Under the pieces are notes generated by a model. It was not told the DNA's origin, ran no database searches, and saw only the letters and a program-made list of their open reading frames with translations. The translations under genes were made by a program, and so were the position numbers. Below are positions 3,603 through 49,527 of a stretch of DNA of 64,000 bases, piece after piece (positions within the stretch are counted from its first letter, which is position 1; each line of letters opens with the position of its first letter). The DNA comes from Bacteroidota bacterium (GTDB lineage Bacteria > Bacteroidota > Ignavibacteria > OLB7): contig JAFDZV010000018.1 of assembly GCA_018266795.1 (NCBI GenBank), positions 96,826 through 160,825 of the forward strand, written 5' to 3'.

Positions 3603-4958
3603 ATGGCACGACACATCACACTTCTTGGAGCCGGCCTTACCGGGCCGCTGCTTGCCACCTACCTTGCGCGACGGGGATACACCGTTGATCTGTACGAGCG
3701 GCGTCCGGACATGCGGCTTCGCGACGTAGGCGGCGGGCGCTCCATCAATCTCGCGCTCTCCACGCGAGGCATTCACGCGCTCGCGGGGGCGGGGATCGAT
3801 CATGCGGTGCTGGCGGACGCAATCGCCATGCCCGGCCGTATGATTCACGATCTGGAGGGCACCCAGACGCTTCAGCCGTACGGTGTGGAGGGGCAGGCGA
3901 TCAACTCCATCTCCCGCTCCGGTCTGAACATCCTGCTGCTGGACGCGGCGGAACGGGAGCCCGGCGTAACCGTTCACTTCAGCGCCCGGGCTTCGCACGT
4001 GGATCTGGAGCGGCGGACGGTGACCGTGGTGAACGATGAAACCGGCGATGAGCGCACGTTCGGTGTGGATCTTCTGATTGCCGCGGACGGCGCCAACTCC
4101 TCGCTGCGCGCCGCCATGGTTGGCATGCCCGGCTTCGAGCACAGAGTGGAATGGCTGGAGCATGCCTACAAGGAGCTGGAGATCCCGCCCGGTGAGAACG
4201 GAGCCTTCCTCATGGAGCCGCATGCCCTGCATATCTGGCCGCGGCACGATTTCATGATGATCGCGCTGCCGAATCCGAACGCGACCTTCACATGCACCCT
4301 CTTCGCTCCGTATGCCGGCGAGAACGGATTCGATACGATAGCAGGCGATGCGGACGTGCATGCCTACTTCGAGCGGCATTTCTCCGACGCGCTTCCGTTG
4401 ATGCCGACGCTCATCGAGGATTGGAACCACAACCCCACGTCGCAGCTTGGCACGGTATTCTGCGGTCCATGGAACGTGGGCGACTGGGCATTGCTCATCG
4501 GCGACGCGGCGCACGCGATCGTGCCGTTCTACGGGCAGGGAATGAATTGCTGCTTCGAGGATTGCAGCGTGCTCGATGGATTGCTCGCCGAGCATGGCGA
4601 TGACTGGCAGACGGTAATCGATCGGTTCTACGAGCTTCGCAAGCCGAACTCGGACGCGATTGCACGCCTTGCCGTTGCCAACTTTCTGGAGATGCGATCC
4701 AAGGTGGTGGACCCCCTGTTTCAACGGAAGCGGAAGATCGAGGCTGCATTGCACGCCATGTTCCCGGACCGGTGGATCCCGCTCTATACGATGGTCACGT
4801 TCACGACCATCGGTTACGCCGATGCACTGCGGAGATCGCGCGAGCAGGACGAATTGCTGGACCGTGTGGGGCTAGAGAATGTGGAGCAGGCCATCGCAGC
4901 CGGCCGCGATGCGGCGCGTGCCCTGCTCGGCATCGCGTCCGAACAGGCGGCTGCGTGA
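3603..4958 (+). CDS. kmo: Kynurenine 3-monooxygenase
   Basis: FAD-dependent aromatic hydroxylase, 451 residues, converting L-kynurenine to 3-hydroxykynurenine with NADPH and O2. The Rossmann FAD motif is G9-A-G-L-T-G14, followed by the KMO signature DVGGGRSINLALSTRG (about 39-54), the second FAD motif AADGAN (near 160) and LIGDAAHAIVPFYGQGMN (near 298). The C-terminus lacks the hydrophobic anchor of eukaryotic KMO, so it is likely soluble. Starts 8 bp after the HD gene stop. Together with KynB and KynU this supports the kynurenine branch of de novo NAD synthesis or tryptophan catabolism. Confidence 0.95.
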   Translation: MARHITLLGAGLTGPLLATYLARRGYTVDLYERRPDMRLRDVGGGRSINLALSTRGIHALAGAGIDHAVLADAIAMPGRMIHDLEGTQTLQPYGVEGQAINSISRSGLNILLLDAAEREPGVTVHFSARASHVDLERRTVTVVNDETGDERTFGVDLLIAADGANSSLRAAMVGMPGFEHRVEWLEHAYKELEIPPGENGAFLMEPHALHIWPRHDFMMIALPNPNATFTCTLFAPYAGENGFDTIAGDADVHAYFERHFSDALPLMPTLIEDWNHNPTSQLGTVFCGPWNVGDWALLIGDAAHAIVPFYGQGMNCCFEDCSVLDGLLAEHGDDWQTVIDRFYELRKPNSDAIARLAVANFLEMRSKVVDPLFQRKRKIEAALHAMFPDRWIPLYTMVTFTTIGYADALRRSREQDELLDRVGLENVEQAIAAGRDAARALLGIASEQAAA

Positions 4959-5069: not shown

Positions 5070-5105
5070 AAACATCAGGGGAGCTTCAAGCAACTGAAGC
5101 TCCCC
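5070..5105 (-). terminator. Intrinsic terminator of the small membrane protein gene
   Basis: An 11-bp perfect stem, GGGGAGCTTCA (5078-5088) with TGAAGCTCCCC (5095-5105) and a 6-nt loop. Read on the minus strand, it is followed by TGATG and five T residues (5066-5072 region). It lies 35 bp past the stop of the minus-strand gene at 5140-5367. Confidence 0.85.
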
Positions 5106-5139
5106 CGAGTCTTTACAGGAGACGAGGCATCCGCTGGCA

Positions 5140-5367
5140 CTATATCATGGTGCTCAGCATCATCGCTACCGCTATCCCTGCGATCGTGCCGATCAGCAGG
5201 CCCGCGAGCGTACCGTCATGCTTGCCGGTACTGTAGCCGCGGGTAAAACTGTCGACATAGTCGAAGCCCTCCCGGCTGTGTTCATGGGAGGGGCCGGCTC
5301 TGTCCGCAGAGACAGGGAGCTTCCAACTCTTGTGAGAAAACGGGGTATGGGGACGAACGATTTCCAT
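5140..5367 (-). CDS. Small single-pass membrane protein, unknown
   Basis: 75 residues. The C-terminal segment (about 52-75, GTLAGLLIGTIAGIAVAMML) is a glycine-rich transmembrane helix at the very end of the protein, giving a tail-anchored look; the first 50 residues are polar. The ATG at 5367 has GAGG about 9 nt upstream on the minus strand, and a clear intrinsic terminator follows the stop, so this isolated small gene is supported by signals on both sides. I do not recognise the family; it loosely resembles YtxH-like small membrane proteins. Confidence 0.65.
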   Translation of the reverse strand: MEIVRPHTPFSHKSWKLPVSADRAGPSHEHSREGFDYVDSFTRGYSTGKHDGTLAGLLIGTIAGIAVAMMLSTMI

Positions 5368-5901
5368 TGTTGGACCTCAGGAAAATGTTCAATGGTAATG
5401 CGAGCTGTTTCCATGTTTTGGACCTCGGAATGAACTCGCAGCGAAGAATTTACGATTCGCAACAGTACGGCGCCACAAGAATTTTTCGCTGCTGCGAAAA
5501 TTCTTCCCCTGTCGTTGTGCGATATCATGGTCTGTCAACCAGGCGCGAAAGCCGGGAATAATGGGCCTTCCAGGCCGGTTGCCGGTTCGTGTTGGTCGCC
5601 GTGGCCCGATCGTGACACGATATATCCTGCCGCCGACCAACCCGAGACGGGCGGCGAGGGGCAGCCCGCGGTTCCACCTGCGGGGCCGGACTCCGACGCG
5701 TGCGGCAGGCCGGGCGAACACCGTTCCAACCCGATGGCGGTTCTCCGGCGAACGGTGCGCGCGGAGCATCGTTCGCTGCCGTTCGGAGTGTTATGTTCGC
5801 TCCGCACAATTGTTGACGGGTGGATGGTTCGTTGCCGGTACAGCTCGGCCATGGACCCGTGGCCGCGAACCGTTCTGCTCCTTCGATATCGAATCCCGCC
5901 C
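5368..5901. other. 534-bp intergenic region with one long hairpin
   Basis: This divergent spacer lies between the minus-strand small membrane protein gene and the plus-strand acetyltransferase gene. Open frames cross it on both strands but none has a recognisable product or ribosome site. The only clear structure is the hairpin at 5477-5505. Confidence 0.6.
5477..5505. other. A/T-armed hairpin of unknown function
   Basis: AAGAATTTTTCGC (5477-5489), loop TGCT, GCGAAAATTCTT (5494-5505): 12 bp with one bulged T. It is markedly AT-rich against the 60% GC background and is about 110 bp upstream of the minus-strand small membrane protein gene. It could be a regulatory stem or an operator-like inverted repeat. 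Confidence 0.55.
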
Positions 5902-6300
5902 ATGATGATCCAGTACGCCGTTGAGCCGGACGTTCCGGCGGAAGCCGTGGCCGCATTGTTTCGTGCCTCGGGAATCAACAGACCGGTTGACGACATCGGC
6001 CGCATCGCCCGGATGGTGGCGAATGCCAATCTGGTGATCACCGCAAGAGACGGGGGTCGTCTGGTTGGGATAGCCCGTGCTCTCAGCGACTTCAGCTATT
6101 GCTGCTACCTCTCCGATCTGGCCGTCGATGCGGAGTATCAACGCCGCGGGATCGGCCGGGAACTGATCGGCGAGGTGCGGAAGGCGATCGGCCCGGAGTC
6201 GATGCTGCTGTTGCTTGCCGCGCCGCGGGCCGCGGAGTACTATCCGCACATCGGCTTCGCTCACATCGGGAACGGATGGATCATTCATCGTGAGTGTTGA
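5902..6300 (+). CDS. GNAT-family N-acetyltransferase
   Basis: 132 residues from ATG 5902 (a second ATG follows at 5905). The acetyl-CoA binding motif A is clear: LSDLAVDAEYQRRGIGRELI (about 72-91), containing Q-R-R-G-I-G. The C-terminal YYPHIGFAHIGNGW matches the usual GNAT ending (xYxxxGF). Substrate unknown. Upstream in-frame sequence back to 5515 has no homology and is not included. Confidence 0.85.
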   Translation: MMIQYAVEPDVPAEAVAALFRASGINRPVDDIGRIARMVANANLVITARDGGRLVGIARALSDFSYCCYLSDLAVDAEYQRRGIGRELIGEVRKAIGPESMLLLLAAPRAAEYYPHIGFAHIGNGWIIHREC

Positions 6301-6399
6301 GCTCGTATCTTCGCACGTCTCGGCGGCATCGACGTAGCATACCACACGCGCCGCAGTACCTCGCGGGACAATCCCTCATTACGTAATACCGAAACCAGC

Positions 6400-7566
6400 A
6401 TGAAGATTCTGATCCTTGGCAGCGGGCTCATGGGTCCGGCTGCGGCATACAATGCCATCAGCGATCCCGATGTTACCAGCGTGTGCATCTGCGACCGCGA
6501 TCGCGGCCGGTTGGACGCGGCGCTCGCGAAGCTCGCGCAGCACGATGGAGCCTCCAGACTGCGCGGCGTGCAGCTGGATCTGGCGGAGTATGCGCGCGCC
6601 GTGGAGCTGTTCAAGGGGTTCGATGTCATCATGGCGGCGCTGCCGTGGGGAGCAAGCATGCTGGCATTTGCTGCGGCGCTCGAAGCCCGCGTGCCGATCG
6701 TGGACTTCGCGATTCCGGGCGATGACGATCTTCCCGCGCTGAAGCAGCAGGCTGAGGCCGCGGGGTGTCTGGTATTCCTCGGTTGCGGCCTGGAGCCGGG
6801 GCTCACGGAGATCGTAGCGCGCAAGCTGGCTGGCGACCTTGACAGTGTGAGCGAACTGCATATCAAGTGCGGCGGGGTGCCGGCGGTGCCCACCGGACCG
6901 CTTGGCTACAAGATCGTGTTTGGCGGCACGCAGCTCCCGCTTCGCAACACCACCGCGCTCGATGTGGAGCAGGGAGTTGCGCAGCACGTGGCACGGTATT
7001 CCGGTATCGAGATGATAGAGCTTGCGGGCGTTGGCGCATGCGAGGCGTGGCACGAGGGGATGATGCCGTGGCTTCTCGAGATGGACGAGTTCCGCAACAT
7101 CACCGAGGGAACTCAGAAGACGATTCGCTGGCCCGGCTATGCGGCCAAAGCAACGGTGCTTCTGGATCTCGGCCTGCTTGGTACGTCTCCGATCGATGTC
7201 GGCGGCGTGCCGGTGATACCGAAGCAGGTGGTTGATTCCGTTCTTGCGCCGCATGTGACGCTGCACGATGGGGAGGAGGATATCACCCTCTTCCGTGTGG
7301 ACGTTGCAGGCGTGCGCGACGGCCGGCGGATCATGCACCGGGTGGATATGGTTGATCGCTACGACCGCGTTCACGGCTTCACCTCCATGGCCCGGACAAC
7401 GGCCTTTACCGGTGCCATCGCGGCGCGCATGGTTGGCCGCGGTGATATCACGGCAACCGGCCTCTACACATCGGAGGCCCTGATTACGGGTCCGCTGTAC
7501 GACCGGATGATGGCGGAGTTGGAGGCGGAGGGAATTCACTTCCAGCACTCCGTTCACGAGTTGTGA
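6400..7566 (+). CDS. Saccharopine dehydrogenase-family oxidoreductase
   Basis: 388 residues with an N-terminal Rossmann fold (MKILILGSGLMGPAAA, G7-S-G-L-M-G) and the saccharopine dehydrogenase C-terminal arrangement including LGCGLEPGLTEIVARKL (about 127-143) and GGVPAVPTGPLGYK. Relatives are annotated as saccharopine reductase or L-lysine dehydrogenase; the exact amino acid substrate cannot be fixed from sequence. Cytosolic, NAD(P)-dependent. It is monocistronic, starting 99 bp after the acetyltransferase. Confidence 0.85.
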   Translation: MKILILGSGLMGPAAAYNAISDPDVTSVCICDRDRGRLDAALAKLAQHDGASRLRGVQLDLAEYARAVELFKGFDVIMAALPWGASMLAFAAALEARVPIVDFAIPGDDDLPALKQQAEAAGCLVFLGCGLEPGLTEIVARKLAGDLDSVSELHIKCGGVPAVPTGPLGYKIVFGGTQLPLRNTTALDVEQGVAQHVARYSGIEMIELAGVGACEAWHEGMMPWLLEMDEFRNITEGTQKTIRWPGYAAKATVLLDLGLLGTSPIDVGGVPVIPKQVVDSVLAPHVTLHDGEEDITLFRVDVAGVRDGRRIMHRVDMVDRYDRVHGFTSMARTTAFTGAIAARMVGRGDITATGLYTSEALITGPLYDRMMAELEAEGIHFQHSVHEL

Positions 7567-7667
7567 GCGGAGCGGCGCGATCGTGAAGTGATGTGGCGAA
7601 CATACAGCTCAGCGTGCCGCGCGGCGTAGCGGTACGGTTTGTGCCAATACAACAATCGAGGAATTTC

Positions 7668-9965
7668 ATGAACATCGTTCTGCGAATTCTCCCCTGTGTG
7701 TTGTTGCTGGCAACCGGCATTGCGCACGCACAACATGGCGGTGCCACAGCCCGGCATCCGGCTCCGGCAGCAATTGGATTCCCTGAGGCATACAACGGGC
7801 TGATGCAGATCGAACCGGACTCCGCGAACGTTGCGCCGGTGAGCGGCATCACGATCCAGCGGGACGTTGCCACGTTCCATCTGGAGCGCGGCACGCTCTA
7901 CTTCTGCAGGCCGATCGGCGGCCGCGTGTGCGGTGCGCTCTTCATCGGCAACGGCAGCTTTTCGTTTACGCCTCCAACCGAGGTGGAGCGTGCGCATCTG
8001 AATCGCATGCTGGGCCACGACGCGGTCATGCAGCCGTTCAACCGGCTGTTCCTCCTGTTCGCGGACAGCACCGCCGATGAGTTGAAGCGCGGCGCGCACT
8101 TCGCCCCAGGGTCCGTTGCCGAGAGCGACGCGGCGGAGATCGGTTACTCCCTTCGATATCTGGCCGATCGCGAGATCCGCCGGTTCGACGACGAGTTCCT
8201 GGAGGCACTCCTCAACGACGACCACAACGGTCTCTTCTACTCGCAGTTCACACCCGACGGCGGCGATCCGTTCTTCTTCGAGATCAATCCGTATGTCGGC
8301 AGCTTCGAGAACGAGGAAGTGCTCTTCATGCACCGTGGTGTGAACCAGCACAATACCCCCTTCCGCGAACTGGTGAGTTCCTTTCCGCGCCGGGAATCCG
8401 GGTCGCGTCGAGTGGAGGATGCGCGCCCGCTGCTGAACGTGGAGCGCTATACGATCGACTGCTCGATTGCCACCAACCTTGATCTGGCTGCACGGTGCAA
8501 CGTGGCGTTCAAGGCTCCCGCCAGGGAGAGCCGGTGGGTTCTCTTCGCGCTGGAGCCGGAGTTGAAGGTGGATTCGGCATCGTGGGGGAACGGGGAACGG
8601 ATCGAATGCTATCAGACCGGGGATGGAGGCGTCTGGATGCGAACCAGTACGGCCGGCCTTGCATCGGGATCGTTCACGCTTCACTATCACGGGCGTTTCT
8701 TCGATCGTGCGGAGGACTGGATCGTGATGCATTCATCCATCGGATGGTATCCACAATGCGACGACAAGAACAGGGCGCTCTTCGATCTCACGTTTCATAT
8801 CCCCTCGAGCATGAAGCTGGCAAGCATCGGAGCGTTGAAGGGAACCGAGGAGCATGACGGCGTAACCACCTCGCATTGGGCAACGGCCGGTCCGGTGCGA
8901 ATCGCATCGTTCGGCCTCGGCGTGTTCGAGGAGAAGAAGGTGGAGACCGATTCAACTGCACCGATCACCGTGTATCGTGGAATTCATTCGTCGCGGGGCG
9001 CAACGGAGCAGATCGGCTGGGACGTGGAGCACAGCATCAAGTTCTTCGAATATCTGTTCGGGAAACTGGATGCTCCGAATTTCAGTGCCACCGAAATTCC
9101 GGAGGCGCACGGCGAGGCGTTTCCGGGCCTGATTCACCTGTCGGTCTCCACATTCGATCGGAACAACGAATCCGGTTTCCACGAGATATTCCGTGCGCAC
9201 GAGGTTGCGCATCAATGGTGGGGAATCGGCCTGGACTTCAGTACCTATCACGATCAGTGGCTCAGCGAGGGCTTCGCCGAATATTCCGGACTCATGTACA
9301 TGCAGGCGGTGCTGAAGGATAACGACAAGTTCTTCAAACGGCTCGATGAGTATCGCAGGCAGATCCTGGGGAACAGGAAATCGATCTTCGGAAATGGGCA
9401 GCAGGCCGGGCCGATCTGGCTGGGATATCGCACGAGCAGCAGCAGCACCGAGGGCGACTACGATCTGATTATTTATCGCAAGGGGGCGTGGGTGCTTCAC
9501 ATGCTCCGTATGATGCTGCTGGACCTGCAGACCATGAAGGAGGATAAATACCTCGGCGCAATGCGCGACTTCTTTGCCGCGTATCGCGGACGCTATGCCT
9601 CCACGGAGGATTTCCGGAAGACGATGGAGAAATATTCCGGCGCATCCATGGACTGGTTTTTCAAGCAGTGGGTGTACGGAACCGACGTTCCCACCTACAA
9701 GTGGGCATACAAGGTGGACGATGCACCAGACGGAAAATTCCGCCTGCAACTCCGAGTGGACCAGACGAACGTGCCGGACGATTTTCAGATGTACGTTCCT
9801 CTCAAGATCGACTTCGGCGACGGTCGGCTGGCGCGTCTGCGTGTTCTGGTGAAAGGGCCGCATGCGCAGCCGCAGCTTCCCCTGATGCCGTTGAAGCCGA
9901 AGCAGATATTCTTCAACGACCTGAATGCGGTGCTCTGCGAGTCGGAACAGGTGGAGTGGGAATAA
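7668..9965 (+). CDS. Exported M1-family zinc aminopeptidase
   Basis: 765 residues from ATG 7668, which opens with a Sec signal peptide (MNIVLRILPCVLLLATGIAHAQ). The gluzincin catalytic site is H511-E-V-A-H515 with the downstream glutamate E534 in LSEGFAEY, the M1 arrangement. The N-terminal 350 residues are the beta-rich region preceding the catalytic domain; the C-terminal part resembles the M1 C-terminal beta domain. Likely periplasmic or outer-membrane-associated peptide degradation. There is no T9SS sorting domain at its C-terminus. Confidence 0.9.
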   Translation: MNIVLRILPCVLLLATGIAHAQHGGATARHPAPAAIGFPEAYNGLMQIEPDSANVAPVSGITIQRDVATFHLERGTLYFCRPIGGRVCGALFIGNGSFSFTPPTEVERAHLNRMLGHDAVMQPFNRLFLLFADSTADELKRGAHFAPGSVAESDAAEIGYSLRYLADREIRRFDDEFLEALLNDDHNGLFYSQFTPDGGDPFFFEINPYVGSFENEEVLFMHRGVNQHNTPFRELVSSFPRRESGSRRVEDARPLLNVERYTIDCSIATNLDLAARCNVAFKAPARESRWVLFALEPELKVDSASWGNGERIECYQTGDGGVWMRTSTAGLASGSFTLHYHGRFFDRAEDWIVMHSSIGWYPQCDDKNRALFDLTFHIPSSMKLASIGALKGTEEHDGVTTSHWATAGPVRIASFGLGVFEEKKVETDSTAPITVYRGIHSSRGATEQIGWDVEHSIKFFEYLFGKLDAPNFSATEIPEAHGEAFPGLIHLSVSTFDRNNESGFHEIFRAHEVAHQWWGIGLDFSTYHDQWLSEGFAEYSGLMYMQAVLKDNDKFFKRLDEYRRQILGNRKSIFGNGQQAGPIWLGYRTSSSSTEGDYDLIIYRKGAWVLHMLRMMLLDLQTMKEDKYLGAMRDFFAAYRGRYASTEDFRKTMEKYSGASMDWFFKQWVYGTDVPTYKWAYKVDDAPDGKFRLQLRVDQTNVPDDFQMYVPLKIDFGDGRLARLRVLVKGPHAQPQLPLMPLKPKQIFFNDLNAVLCESEQVEWE

Positions 9966-44851: not shown

Positions 44852-47236
44852 CTAGACGAGCGGCTTCTCGAACACGCGATATCGCTTGTACGGCGTGGCG
44901 TTCATCATTTCTGCAGCTCGCGTCATCATGACATTGTCCTCGAGTACCCATGAGGCCTCGCCGCGCGTCATCCCCTTCCTTCTCGCACGCTCCATGATCT
45001 CGCGATACAGCAGGGCATCGATGCCCTTCCCCTGGTGCTCCGGGAGCACGCCGAGGATAATGATGCGGCACTGCGTGATCTGCTTCTTCTTCGTCATGAG
45101 GTTCATTATCGCCGTCGGCAGGTTCTTTGCGCCCGGTGGTATCGCGGAGCCGGCCTTGAACGCCTGGTTGATGTCAGGAACCGCAAGTGCAAACCCAACC
45201 GTCTGCCCGTCGCGCTCGGCGAAGAGAACGAGATCGGCGTCGATCACCTGCTTCAACTCGTACGCCATCATGTTCATCTCTTCGTCGGTCATCGGAACGA
45301 ATCCCCAGTTCGGCTGCCACGCCTTGTTGTAGATCGTCTTGATCCGATCCACTTCTTCATCGAAGCGCTTCATGTTCAGGCTGCGCACTGTTGCCGCGCC
45401 GCGCTGCTTCAACAGGCCGGTAACCCGCTCCAGCCTGTCGGTAAGGCAGGCTGGGTACTCCACCATCCATGCAAGCATGTCCTTTGCCTTGGCGAACCCG
45501 GCATTCTCCATGAGCTGCGGATAGTAGGCCTTGTTGTAGGGCATCTGCATCACGGCCGGCGAGTCGAATCCATCAACCAGCATTCCCACTTCGTCGTTGA
45601 TCGACGGCGAGATCGGTCCGCGGATCGACGTCATTCCCTGCTCGCGCAGCCAGGCTGATGCGGCATTCACGAGCTCGTTGGCTACGTCCTGGTCGTTTAC
45701 CGATTCGAAGAAGCCGAAGAAGCCCACCTTGTCGTTGTGCACCGCGTTGTGCGCATCGTTCACGATGGCGGCGATGCGCCCAACCACCTGGCCCTTTCGT
45801 TCGGCTACGAAGAGATGCAGCCGTGCATGCTTGTAGAACGGGTTCTTCTCCGTATCGATCAACCGCATGCGGTCCATCTCCAGCGGCGGCACCCAGTTCG
45901 GATCGTCCTTGTGCAGGCCCCACACCATACGGATGAACTCCAGGCGCTCCTTCCGGCTGGAGAGCGTGCGGATTGTGACCGTTCCGCTTGTGGGAAGCGG
46001 CTCCGATGCGGACTGCTCCGCAGCCGTGGCCGGCGTCTCCTTCTCCAGCAGCCCCATCTCGGTTCCGATGTCCTCGAAGAGTTCGAGGATCCGATCCAGC
46101 TGATGCTTCTCGTGCGTCGCCATCACGGAGGTGCGCATCATCTGCATGCCCGGCATAACGCCCGGCGAGATGAATGCGTTCACGAATACGCCGGCGTCAA
46201 ATAGTCTGCGCCAGAAGATGAACGTGAGCGTATCGTCACCGATGATAACCGGTATCACGCCGGTGATGCCGTCGATGATCTTGAAGCCGCTGGCAAGGAA
46301 CCCCTGGCGCATGTAGTTGGCATTATCGGCAAGGCGCTGCAGCAGTTCCGGTTCGGACCGCATGATGCGCAGCGCGGCCAGTGCGGCTGCAACGGATGCG
46401 GGTGTGGGAGAGGCGGAGAAGATCAGTGCCGGTGACGTATGCTTGATGTAGTTGATCACGCGCTCCTCGCCAACCACCCAGCCGCCGAGCGAGGCGAGCG
46501 ACTTGGAAAACGTTCCCATCGTGAGATCGGTCTGGTCCTCCAGGCCGAAGTAGCTGGCGGTGCCGCGGCCTCCCTTGCCGATGACGCCGAGTGCATGCGC
46601 GTCATCAACCATGATGCGCGAGCCGTACTTCTTCGCCAGTTCGTTCATTCTCGGGAGTTCACAGATCGTCCCCGTGGTGCTGAAGACGCCATCGGTGACG
46701 ATCAGTTTGCCCGATCCCTCCGGAAGGCGTGCAAGCTGGCGCTCCAGGTCATCCATGTCGTTGTGCTTGTAGCGGACCACCTCGCCGAAGGCCCCCTTGG
46801 CCATCAGGTTGCCCGCTACGATACAGGCATGGTTGTCTCTGTCGGAGATAACATAGTCGCCGCGATTGACAAGTGTCGGGATCACCCCCTGCGCAGTCTG
46901 ATAGCCGGTGGAGAAGAGAAGACAGGCCTCCTTTCCCATGAAGTCCGCAAGCTCCGCCTCGAGTTCCTCATGGAGGCGAACAGTGCCTGTGAGATAGCGC
47001 GAGCCCGAGCAGCCTGTGCCGAACTGTTCGGTGGCCTTGATGGCGGCCTCCTTTACACGCGGATCCGCGGTAAGGCCCAGGTAGTTGTTGGAGCCGGCCA
47101 TGATGATGTCCCGCCCCTCGATCCTGACAACAGGACCTTCGTTCTCCTCGATCGCTCTGAAGTAGGGATAGTATCCCGCTTCCTTCACGTCGTCGGCGCG
47201 GGTAAACTCACGACACTTCTGGAAGATGTCAGCCAA
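44852..47236 (-). CDS. Serine palmitoyltransferase-like enzyme fused to GNAT acyltransferase
   Basis: 794 residues. Residues 1-400 are a PLP-dependent alpha-oxoamine synthase: [30 protein letters not shown]211-D-A-H-A-L-G, Schiff-base K245 in [12 protein letters not shown]. The opening [20 protein letters not shown] is typical of bacterial serine palmitoyltransferase. After a Thr/Ala/Glu-rich linker (about 400-418), residues 420-794 form a GNAT-type acyltransferase of the YghO-like group ([22 protein letters not shown]) with the CoA loop Q735-G-K-G-I. The start is TTG, supported by CAGGAG 10 nt upstream and by N-terminal similarity. Inferred role: sphinganine-type base synthesis plus N-acylation. 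Confidence 0.85.
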
Positions 47237-47628: not shown

Positions 47629-48387
47629 TCATGCCGATGCGGCGAGCAATCGCTCCACGACGGCGACATCCTCCGGTGTGTCCACCGCATGGCCGGTGTA
47701 GTTGGTCTCGACGCAGAGGATGGGAATGTCGAGCTCGTACAGGCGCAGCTGCTCCAGCCCCTCGCTGATCTCCAGTTGGGAAGGGGGGGCGGCAACGAAC
47801 TGCTCGAGTGCAACATGGCGGTATGCGTAGATGCCGATGTGCACGTAGTACGGATATGCCTTCAGCCACTGTTCAACCGGGAGGCTGCGAGCATGCGGAA
47901 TGGGGCTGCGCGAAAAGTAGAGCGGGCGGAGATCCGATGTGAGCGCCACCTTCACAATGTTCGGTGACAGGAGATGCTCTGTGGTGGTGATTCGGCGAAC
48001 CGGTGTTGCGCAGCCATAGTGGGACGTCTGAAGCGTCTCCACCAGCGTGTCCAGCAATTCCGGCGGGAGCATCGGCTCATCTCCCTGCACGTTGATCACA
48101 ATGCCTCCGCCGCCGACAAGCCGCGCGGCCTCGGCAACACGATCGGTGCCCGAAGCATGCTTCGTCGAGGTGAGCACTGCATTGCCGCCGAACTCCTCCA
48201 CATGACGCAGGATACGCTCGTCATCTGTTGCCACTACAATACGGTCGATGCGCTGCGCCTTCTGCACCTGCTCGTAAACCCGGCGGATCATGCTGCGCCC
48301 GGCAATCTCCGCGAGCGGTTTGCCGGGGAATCGCGTGGAGGCATGGCGCGCAGGAATGACGGCGACTACGTCCTCGGTATCATTCAT
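47629..48387 (-). CDS. kdsB: 3-deoxy-manno-octulosonate cytidylyltransferase
   Basis: 252 residues from ATG 48387. KdsB activates Kdo as CMP-Kdo for lipopolysaccharide inner core. VAVIPARHASTRFPGKPL (about 6-23) is the nucleotide-binding motif, with VVATDDERI, GTDRVAEA and NVQGDEP following in family order. A TTG 12 bp upstream is in frame (48399) and would fall in the palindrome; ATG is preferred. Confirms an LPS-bearing outer membrane. No Shine-Dalgarno sequence visible. Confidence 0.95.
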   Translation of the reverse strand: MNDTEDVVAVIPARHASTRFPGKPLAEIAGRSMIRRVYEQVQKAQRIDRIVVATDDERILRHVEEFGGNAVLTSTKHASGTDRVAEAARLVGGGGIVINVQGDEPMLPPELLDTLVETLQTSHYGCATPVRRITTTEHLLSPNIVKVALTSDLRPLYFSRSPIPHARSLPVEQWLKAYPYYVHIGIYAYRHVALEQFVAAPPSQLEISEGLEQLRLYELDIPILCVETNYTGHAVDTPEDVAVVERLLAASA

Positions 48388-48398
48388 CGGAGGATTCA

Positions 48399-48420
48399 AG
48401 CGCCCGGCATGCCGGGCGCT
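48399..48420. promoter_or_regulatory. 22-nt perfect GC palindrome before kdsB
   Basis: AGCGCCCGGCATGCCGGGCGCT, perfectly self-complementary, ending 12 bp upstream of the kdsB ATG. As RNA it could fold to a 9-bp stem with a CAUG loop right at the translation start; as DNA it could be an operator or a terminator for gatC read-through (no T-tract). Confidence 0.7.
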
Positions 48421-48652: not shown

Positions 48653-48940
48653 TCAACTCTCGCCGAGTACCTTCGGAACGGAGAAGAACCCTTCGGTCTT
48701 GCGGGGAGCATTGCGAAGTGCCTCCGCCGCAGAAAGCATCGTACCCGGCTCGTCTTCCCGGAGCGTGGAGCCCGCATCCAGGAGGCTCTCCATAGGCTCG
48801 ATTCCATTGGTGTCCGCCTGGTTCAACTGTTCCACATAGGCGACGATCTGATTGAACTGCGCGGTGAAACCTGCAAGTTCCTCCGCGCTGAACCGAAGCC
48901 GTGCCAGTTTTGCGATGTACTCGATCTGCTCCGATGTCAT
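48653..48940 (-). CDS. gatC: Asp/Glu-tRNA amidotransferase subunit C
   Basis: 95 residues, normal size. N-terminal IEYIAKLARLRFSAEELAGF and the C-terminal LREDEPGTML are diagnostic of GatC, which stabilises the GatA/GatB complex that converts misacylated Glu-tRNA(Gln) or Asp-tRNA(Asn). GatA and GatB are not adjacent. The structured repeat array at 49061-49479 lies 121 bp upstream on the same strand, so it would be in the leader of any transcript arriving from that side. Confidence 0.93.
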   Translation of the reverse strand: MTSEQIEYIAKLARLRFSAEELAGFTAQFNQIVAYVEQLNQADTNGIEPMESLLDAGSTLREDEPGTMLSAAEALRNAPRKTEGFFSVPKVLGES

Positions 48941-49060: not shown

Positions 49061-49103
49061 AAAAAAAAGAAGCTGCGCAACTCACCCCTGATTGCACAGC
49101 TTC
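49061..49103 (-). terminator. Repeat unit 1 intrinsic terminator
   Basis: Plus-strand arms 49069-49080 and 49092-49103; minus-strand RNA stem GAAGCUGUGCAA/UUGCGCAGCUUC (one G-U pair), loop UCAGGGGUGAG, followed by eight U (49061-49068). Confidence 0.88.
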
Positions 49104-49205
49104 GAACTTGAAGGCGAAAGGTTGGTGCCTCCGACCTTCGGGAGTGAATACTCGCCGAACGAGTGGATAGTTCCCGTCGGCGGGAAACTTCTTCGCGGGC
49201 CTTCG

Positions 49206-49249
49206 AAAAAGAAAGAAGCCATGCAATTCACCCCTGATTGCACGGCTTC
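49206..49249 (-). terminator. Repeat unit 2 intrinsic terminator
   Basis: Arms 49215-49226 and 49238-49249; RNA stem GAAGCCGUGCAA/UUGCAUGGCUUC, loop UCAGGGGUGAA, then UUUCUUUUU. Relative to unit 1 a U-A pair has become C-G, and the wobble position has shifted by one pair, preserving the stem. Confidence 0.88.
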
Positions 49250-49350
49250 GGAATTGAGGGCCGAGGGTTGGTGCCTCCGACCTTCGGAAGTGAATACTCG
49301 CCGAGCGAACAGATAGTTCCCATCGGTGGGAAACTTCTTTGCGAGCTTCG

Positions 49351-49393
49351 AAAAAAAAGAAGCTGCGCAACTCACCCCTGATTGCACAGCTTC
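49351..49393 (-). terminator. Repeat unit 3 intrinsic terminator
   Basis: Arms 49359-49370 and 49382-49393, same stem and loop as unit 1, followed by eight U. First of the three to be met by transcripts leaving msrP. Confidence 0.88.
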
Positions 49394-49527
49394 GAACTTG
49401 AAGGCGAAGGGTTGGTGCCTCAGCGTCTTCGAGAATGAATACTCACCATGGCGCCGGTTTGTTCCCATTCGGATGGGAAAGGGTGCGGGCACTGATTCCA
49501 AACCGGAATGGGGGATTCAGGGGGGAA

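Follow-up and report, generated by a model that had tools for sequence, protein, structure and literature searches.

The repeat array that precedes gatC in the 64,000-nucleotide stretch of DNA analysed here (the window) is probably a set of small RNA genes. Each of its three units holds a promoter-like motif, a short structured RNA and a terminator, so that the unit is best read as a stand-alone, multicopy ("sibling") sRNA gene with its own promoter and terminator. The features of the sequence that speak for this reading are the gene anatomy, a covarying structure, the multiple copies, the gatC neighbourhood and a promoter type that differs in the sister genus.

Organization of the array

The array occupies positions 49061-49496 on the minus strand and consists of three tandem units, with a period of 145-146 bp between promoter motifs; the in-register copies run from 49061 to 49206, 49207 to 49352 and 49351 to 49496. 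Tandem Repeats Finder scored it at 564 and the next array at 66, the whole window considered, which excludes a chance origin. The three units of ~145 bp described in an earlier note on this DNA are thus borne out, as is the near-constancy of the segment GAGGCACCAACC and of the terminator loop UCAGGGGUGA, both unchanged across all three units. The conserved strand is the minus strand, on which every unit closes with a 12+3-bp hairpin and, behind it, a T-tract. Copies were scored with covariance models, of which R1 represents the RNA part of the unit and R2 the R1 copies together with those newly found.

In unit 1, the first in minus-strand order, the putative promoter is formed by a -35 element GGGAAC (49461-49466) and a -10 element GTATTC (49437-49442), and the predicted sRNA (49351-49431; 90.0 bits and E 4.7e-23 with R2, the copy being part of that model; fold z -2.5) comprises hairpin 1 with its CACCAAC loop, the terminator hairpin (49393-49359) and the T-tract. 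Motif comparison across the copies in the genus places the corresponding promoter elements of unit 2 at 49316-49321 and 49292-49297, ahead of a predicted sRNA at 49206-49286 (79.5 bits, copy in the model; z -3.3) with its terminator hairpin at 49249-49215. In the gatC-proximal unit 3 they lie at 49170-49175 and 49146-49151, followed by a predicted sRNA at 49061-49140 (86.4 bits, copy in the model; z -4.3) with a terminator hairpin at 49103-49069 and a T-tract at 49068-49061. The units are mosaic: in its promoter half the gatC-proximal unit is 85% alike to the middle unit, and in its terminator half 98% alike to the first. This suggests recombination (gene conversion) between the copies within the array. 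Open reading frames that cross the array in sense and antisense were not taken as genes, since the copies differ by frame-breaking indels and the stems change by compensation.

Structure of the predicted RNA

The predicted RNA of ~80 nt folds into hairpin 1, with the layout GAAG-(internal loop)-CCGRGG-CACCAAC-CCUCGG-C-CUUC, and then the terminator hairpin. The loops of the two, CACCAA and GGGGUGA, are invariant in all copies, and a terminator (hairpin and T-tract) was found in every copy. Single copies fold with z values of -2.5 to -4.6. In an alignment of 12 distinct copies (A4), 95% of the cells pair and both sides change in 14 of the 25 pairs. Compensating cells number 37, compared with 11.2 +/- 2.9 in shuffles, which ignore relatedness, and with no more than 9 in slid controls, which keep relatedness but favour a structure derived from the same sequences. 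Covariation in the predicted stems is thus supported when more sequences are aligned, as the earlier note had proposed to check, although it rests on few independent events, because there are only four carrier genomes and many of the copies are paralogous. The compensation in the terminator stem that the note had seen is real in the window units and holds over the wider family.

The hairpin with a CCGA loop, which the note had taken for a conserved stem, fared differently: it folds with -7.7 to -8.8 kcal/mol in the window copies and elsewhere with only -2.0 to -5.2 kcal/mol and different pairings. It was also rejected as a part of the RNA, as it lies upstream of it and its 3' arm is the promoter element GGGAAC. 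The second conserved stem is instead the one around CACCAAC. In the two species of the sister genus (G003 and G004), the GGGGUGAG hairpin is present twice in series. A loop-loop kissing interaction of CACC with GGUG (4 bp) is possible, but the letters concerned are invariant and offer no covariation in its favour.

Promoters in the two genera

Each of the 12 copies in the genus has the motif GGGAAC-N18-GTATTC ahead of the RNA, with an identical -35 element and a fixed spacing, while the sequence of the spacer diverges. Exact matches number six in the source genome and seven in its congener (G001), a control pattern giving none, and 12 of these 13 matches are the RNA genes described here. Eleven of the sites were RNA genes already known when the motif was searched; the twelfth, on contig C2 of the congener, was matched by the motif first and found to contain the RNA in a later run of the model. 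A GGAAC-type -35 element, a short -10 element and a fixed spacing, as expected of an ECF-type promoter, are present in all 12 copies, and the layout is like that of the Streptomyces sigma-E promoter (GGGAAC-N17-CGTC; PMC6767563) and of ECF29 promoters, with their GGGAAC -35 element (PMC6180224). We infer from this likeness that the genus promoter would be served by an alternative sigma factor of the ECF type. A search for the motif with up to two mismatches revealed no clear further regulon, and the one-mismatch sites inspected lay inside or overlapped reading frames.

The box TAnnTTTG, a known housekeeping box in Bacteroidota (PMC7366714), stands no more than 70 nt ahead of 14 of the 30 tRNA genes of the source genome and is the housekeeping box there. 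In the sister genus the RNA stands behind a box of this type, whereas the copies of the genus stand behind the ECF-type promoter: in both G003 and G004, TATATTTG is found a few bases ahead of CGAAG. Consequently, the predicted promoter type differs between the sister genera while the putative start of the RNA is kept.

Distribution of the copies

Besides the array, a search of the whole source genome with one unit returned a single other site, on contig C10, where two copies lie 342 bp apart. The array is therefore the only such element within the window, as the earlier note had stated, but not in the genome. The C10 copies (6773-7227 of their locus) are situated between a glycosyltransferase-like gene and a gene for an OmpR-type response regulator, which lies downstream of them in the same direction. 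The congener, the one other genome of the genus that was covered, has six copies on contig C16 (5093-11032 of the locus), with a tyrosine-recombinase-like gene (5093-6319) on one side of them and downstream genes on the other; two of the copies come before and four after a gene on the other strand (7019-9826) for a secreted-type protein of 935 aa. Model R1 added a seventh copy in the congener and one copy apiece in G003 and G004.

With R2, a search of 391 genomes of the class yielded 14 copies in four genomes, i.e., five in the source genome, seven in its congener and one in each species of the sister genus, all at E <= 8.4e-18, the copies inside the model matching by construction; a covariance-model search of related genomes, one of the checks named in the earlier note, thus did find further members. 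At least two closely similar structured RNAs per genome are present in the source genome (five) and the congener (seven). The next match, in G008 (E 3.3e-4 per genome), has the CACCAAC hairpin and lacks the GGGGTGA loop, and nothing convincing was found outside the taxonomic family among these 391 genomes. A search of the phylum with R1 (296 genomes) returned only terminators and tRNA-terminator junctions without the pair of CACCAAC and GGGGTGA loops. Plasmid and phage collections contained no relatives, and pattern matches in viral contigs were rejected as members by the covariance model. In Rfam 15, including Chlorobi-1 (RF01696), no family reached its gathering threshold and no sub-threshold match was meaningful, so that the comparison proposed in the note gave no identity to a known family. 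As neither Rfam nor the plasmid, phage and viral collections hold relatives, this is a new RNA family, of the well-known sibling sRNA kind.

The neighbourhood of gatC

The conserved downstream neighbour, outside the RNA gene, is gatC (48653-48940, minus strand; TIGR00135, E 3.2e-27), which has the same position in the congener and in G003 and G004. It adjoins kdsB (47629-48399), and within the examined region neither gatA nor gatB stands next to it; farther along, 44852-47236 encodes a protein of 794 aa with a serine-palmitoyltransferase/BioF-like domain (approximately residues 5-396) and a C-terminal region with weak matches to GNAT acetyltransferases. In all four carrier genomes a copy (the array in the source genome) ends 120-142 nt ahead of gatC. 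No such element was seen ahead of gatC in G002, a family member without the RNA, or at any further gatC locus inspected in the class. The stretch between the sRNA and gatC cannot be aligned between the genera and is not conserved. In G003 and G004 this stretch contains another strong hairpin, which has a T-run (4900-4945 and 4902-4945 of their loci, respectively). The link is thus one of conserved neighbourhood.

Function

As we infer from the sequence, the units would be transcribed by an ECF-type sigma factor that reads GGGAAC-N18-GTATTC, with a start at or near the conserved GAAG. The RNA, of ~80 nt, would fold into hairpin 1, whose outer stem is GAAG/CUUC and whose inner stem carries the CACCAA loop, and a terminator hairpin that would present GGGGUGA, and would end at the T-tract. 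Having copies both in tandem and at dispersed sites would raise the dosage, as in known sibling sRNAs, and the RNA would most likely act in trans, its exposed invariant loops, which are likely contact sites, pairing with mRNAs when that sigma factor is active. By default, sRNAs of the sibling kind are expected to pair with mRNAs; for this RNA such pairing, its targets and the signal are conjecture. The complement of CACCAAC occurs 84+75 times in the genome and the control 77+76 times; with no excess, it gives no target signal. Hfq (TIGR02383), the mark of an Hfq-dependent sRNA, was encoded in none of the five genomes of the family and was detected in control genomes.

The main rival with regard to function, though an unlikely one, is that the RNA acts as a decoy (sponge), the serial or multicopy GGGGUGA hairpin capturing an RNA-binding protein or the ribosomal anti-Shine-Dalgarno sequence and not mRNAs. 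It would account for a GGGGUGA loop that is the same in all copies, for its doubled hairpin in G003 and G004 and for the raised copy number in the genus, and UCACCUC can pair with GGGGUGA with one G-U, but this pairing assumes the usual 3' end of 16S rRNA and not that of this genome. Moreover, there is only one GGGGUGA loop per RNA in the genus, the GGA motif of CsrA/RsmA is missing, and the equally invariant CACCAA loop needs an explanation of its own. It is very doubtful that, beyond this, the genus may have a sigma factor that serves hardly anything but one amplified RNA, a stress promoter having replaced the original housekeeping promoter, with the RNA a multivalent decoy through its GGGGUGA loops, be it for the anti-Shine-Dalgarno sequence or for a protein.

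The earlier note had considered a tandem regulatory leader, in which the units would act as transcription attenuators and regulated read-through of their terminators would control gatC. The constant position before gatC agrees with this, but an attenuator should be present only upstream of the regulated gene, in a conserved link with it, whereas eight of the 14 copies are located away from gatC (six of them beside the recombinase and secreted-protein genes) and the linker is unconserved. Every unit furthermore carries a promoter and a terminator of its own, the sister genus has the extra hairpin with its T-run ahead of gatC, and no conserved alternative antiterminator pairing was seen. A role in cis on gatC is therefore quite unlikely. 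The other proposal of the note, a small mobile or amplified structured RNA, holds insofar as the RNA is amplified in this genus; that it would be no more than a small mobile element or a terminator repeat that was amplified, and would lack a regulatory role, as its mosaic tandem units and the six copies adjoining a tyrosine-recombinase gene might suggest, is extremely improbable, given that conservation extends beyond the terminator to the promoter, hairpin 1 and both loops, that inverted ends or a transposase were not seen at the window array, that the gatC neighbourhood is kept across two genera, and that plasmids, phages and viral contigs are without relatives.

Comparison with known systems

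The predicted stand-alone sRNA genes described here add an undescribed structured sRNA family for an uncultured lineage near Chlorobi, for which we found no sRNA literature. They form a compact example in which an sRNA gene has one type of promoter in one genus and another in the sister genus, with the copy number raised in one of the two; alignment A4, model R2 and the strict promoter motif provide the means to seek the regulator. The decoy RNAs CsrB and RsmY-Z have hairpins with an invariant G-rich loop and duplicated genes, and in both respects they are like this RNA; its loop, however, is GGGGUGA and not GGA, with one or two such hairpins per RNA. Chlorobi-1 RNA (RF01696) is listed for the neighbouring lineage Chlorobi (PMC2864571) but does not match this RNA. 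FopS and GibS are paralogous sRNAs of Bacteroides thetaiotaomicron; the FopS genes have promoters for sigma-ABfr (TAnnTTTG), and susC-type mRNAs are the pairing partners of 14 copies (PMC11697453). The marks of the FopS group are an R1' seed sequence and binding of RbpB. Compared by description and not by alignment, they likewise form a paralogous sRNA family in the wider Bacteroidota branch, with several copies per genome and no obvious Hfq, whereas this RNA differs in its ECF-type promoter and in the two hairpin loops that never vary. Although unrelated to this RNA by the Rfam search, the sibling sRNAs Qrr, LhrC, PrrF and the csRNAs (reviewed in PMC4211561) are likewise encoded by near-identical genes, some of which stand in tandem and all of which have a promoter and a terminator of their own.
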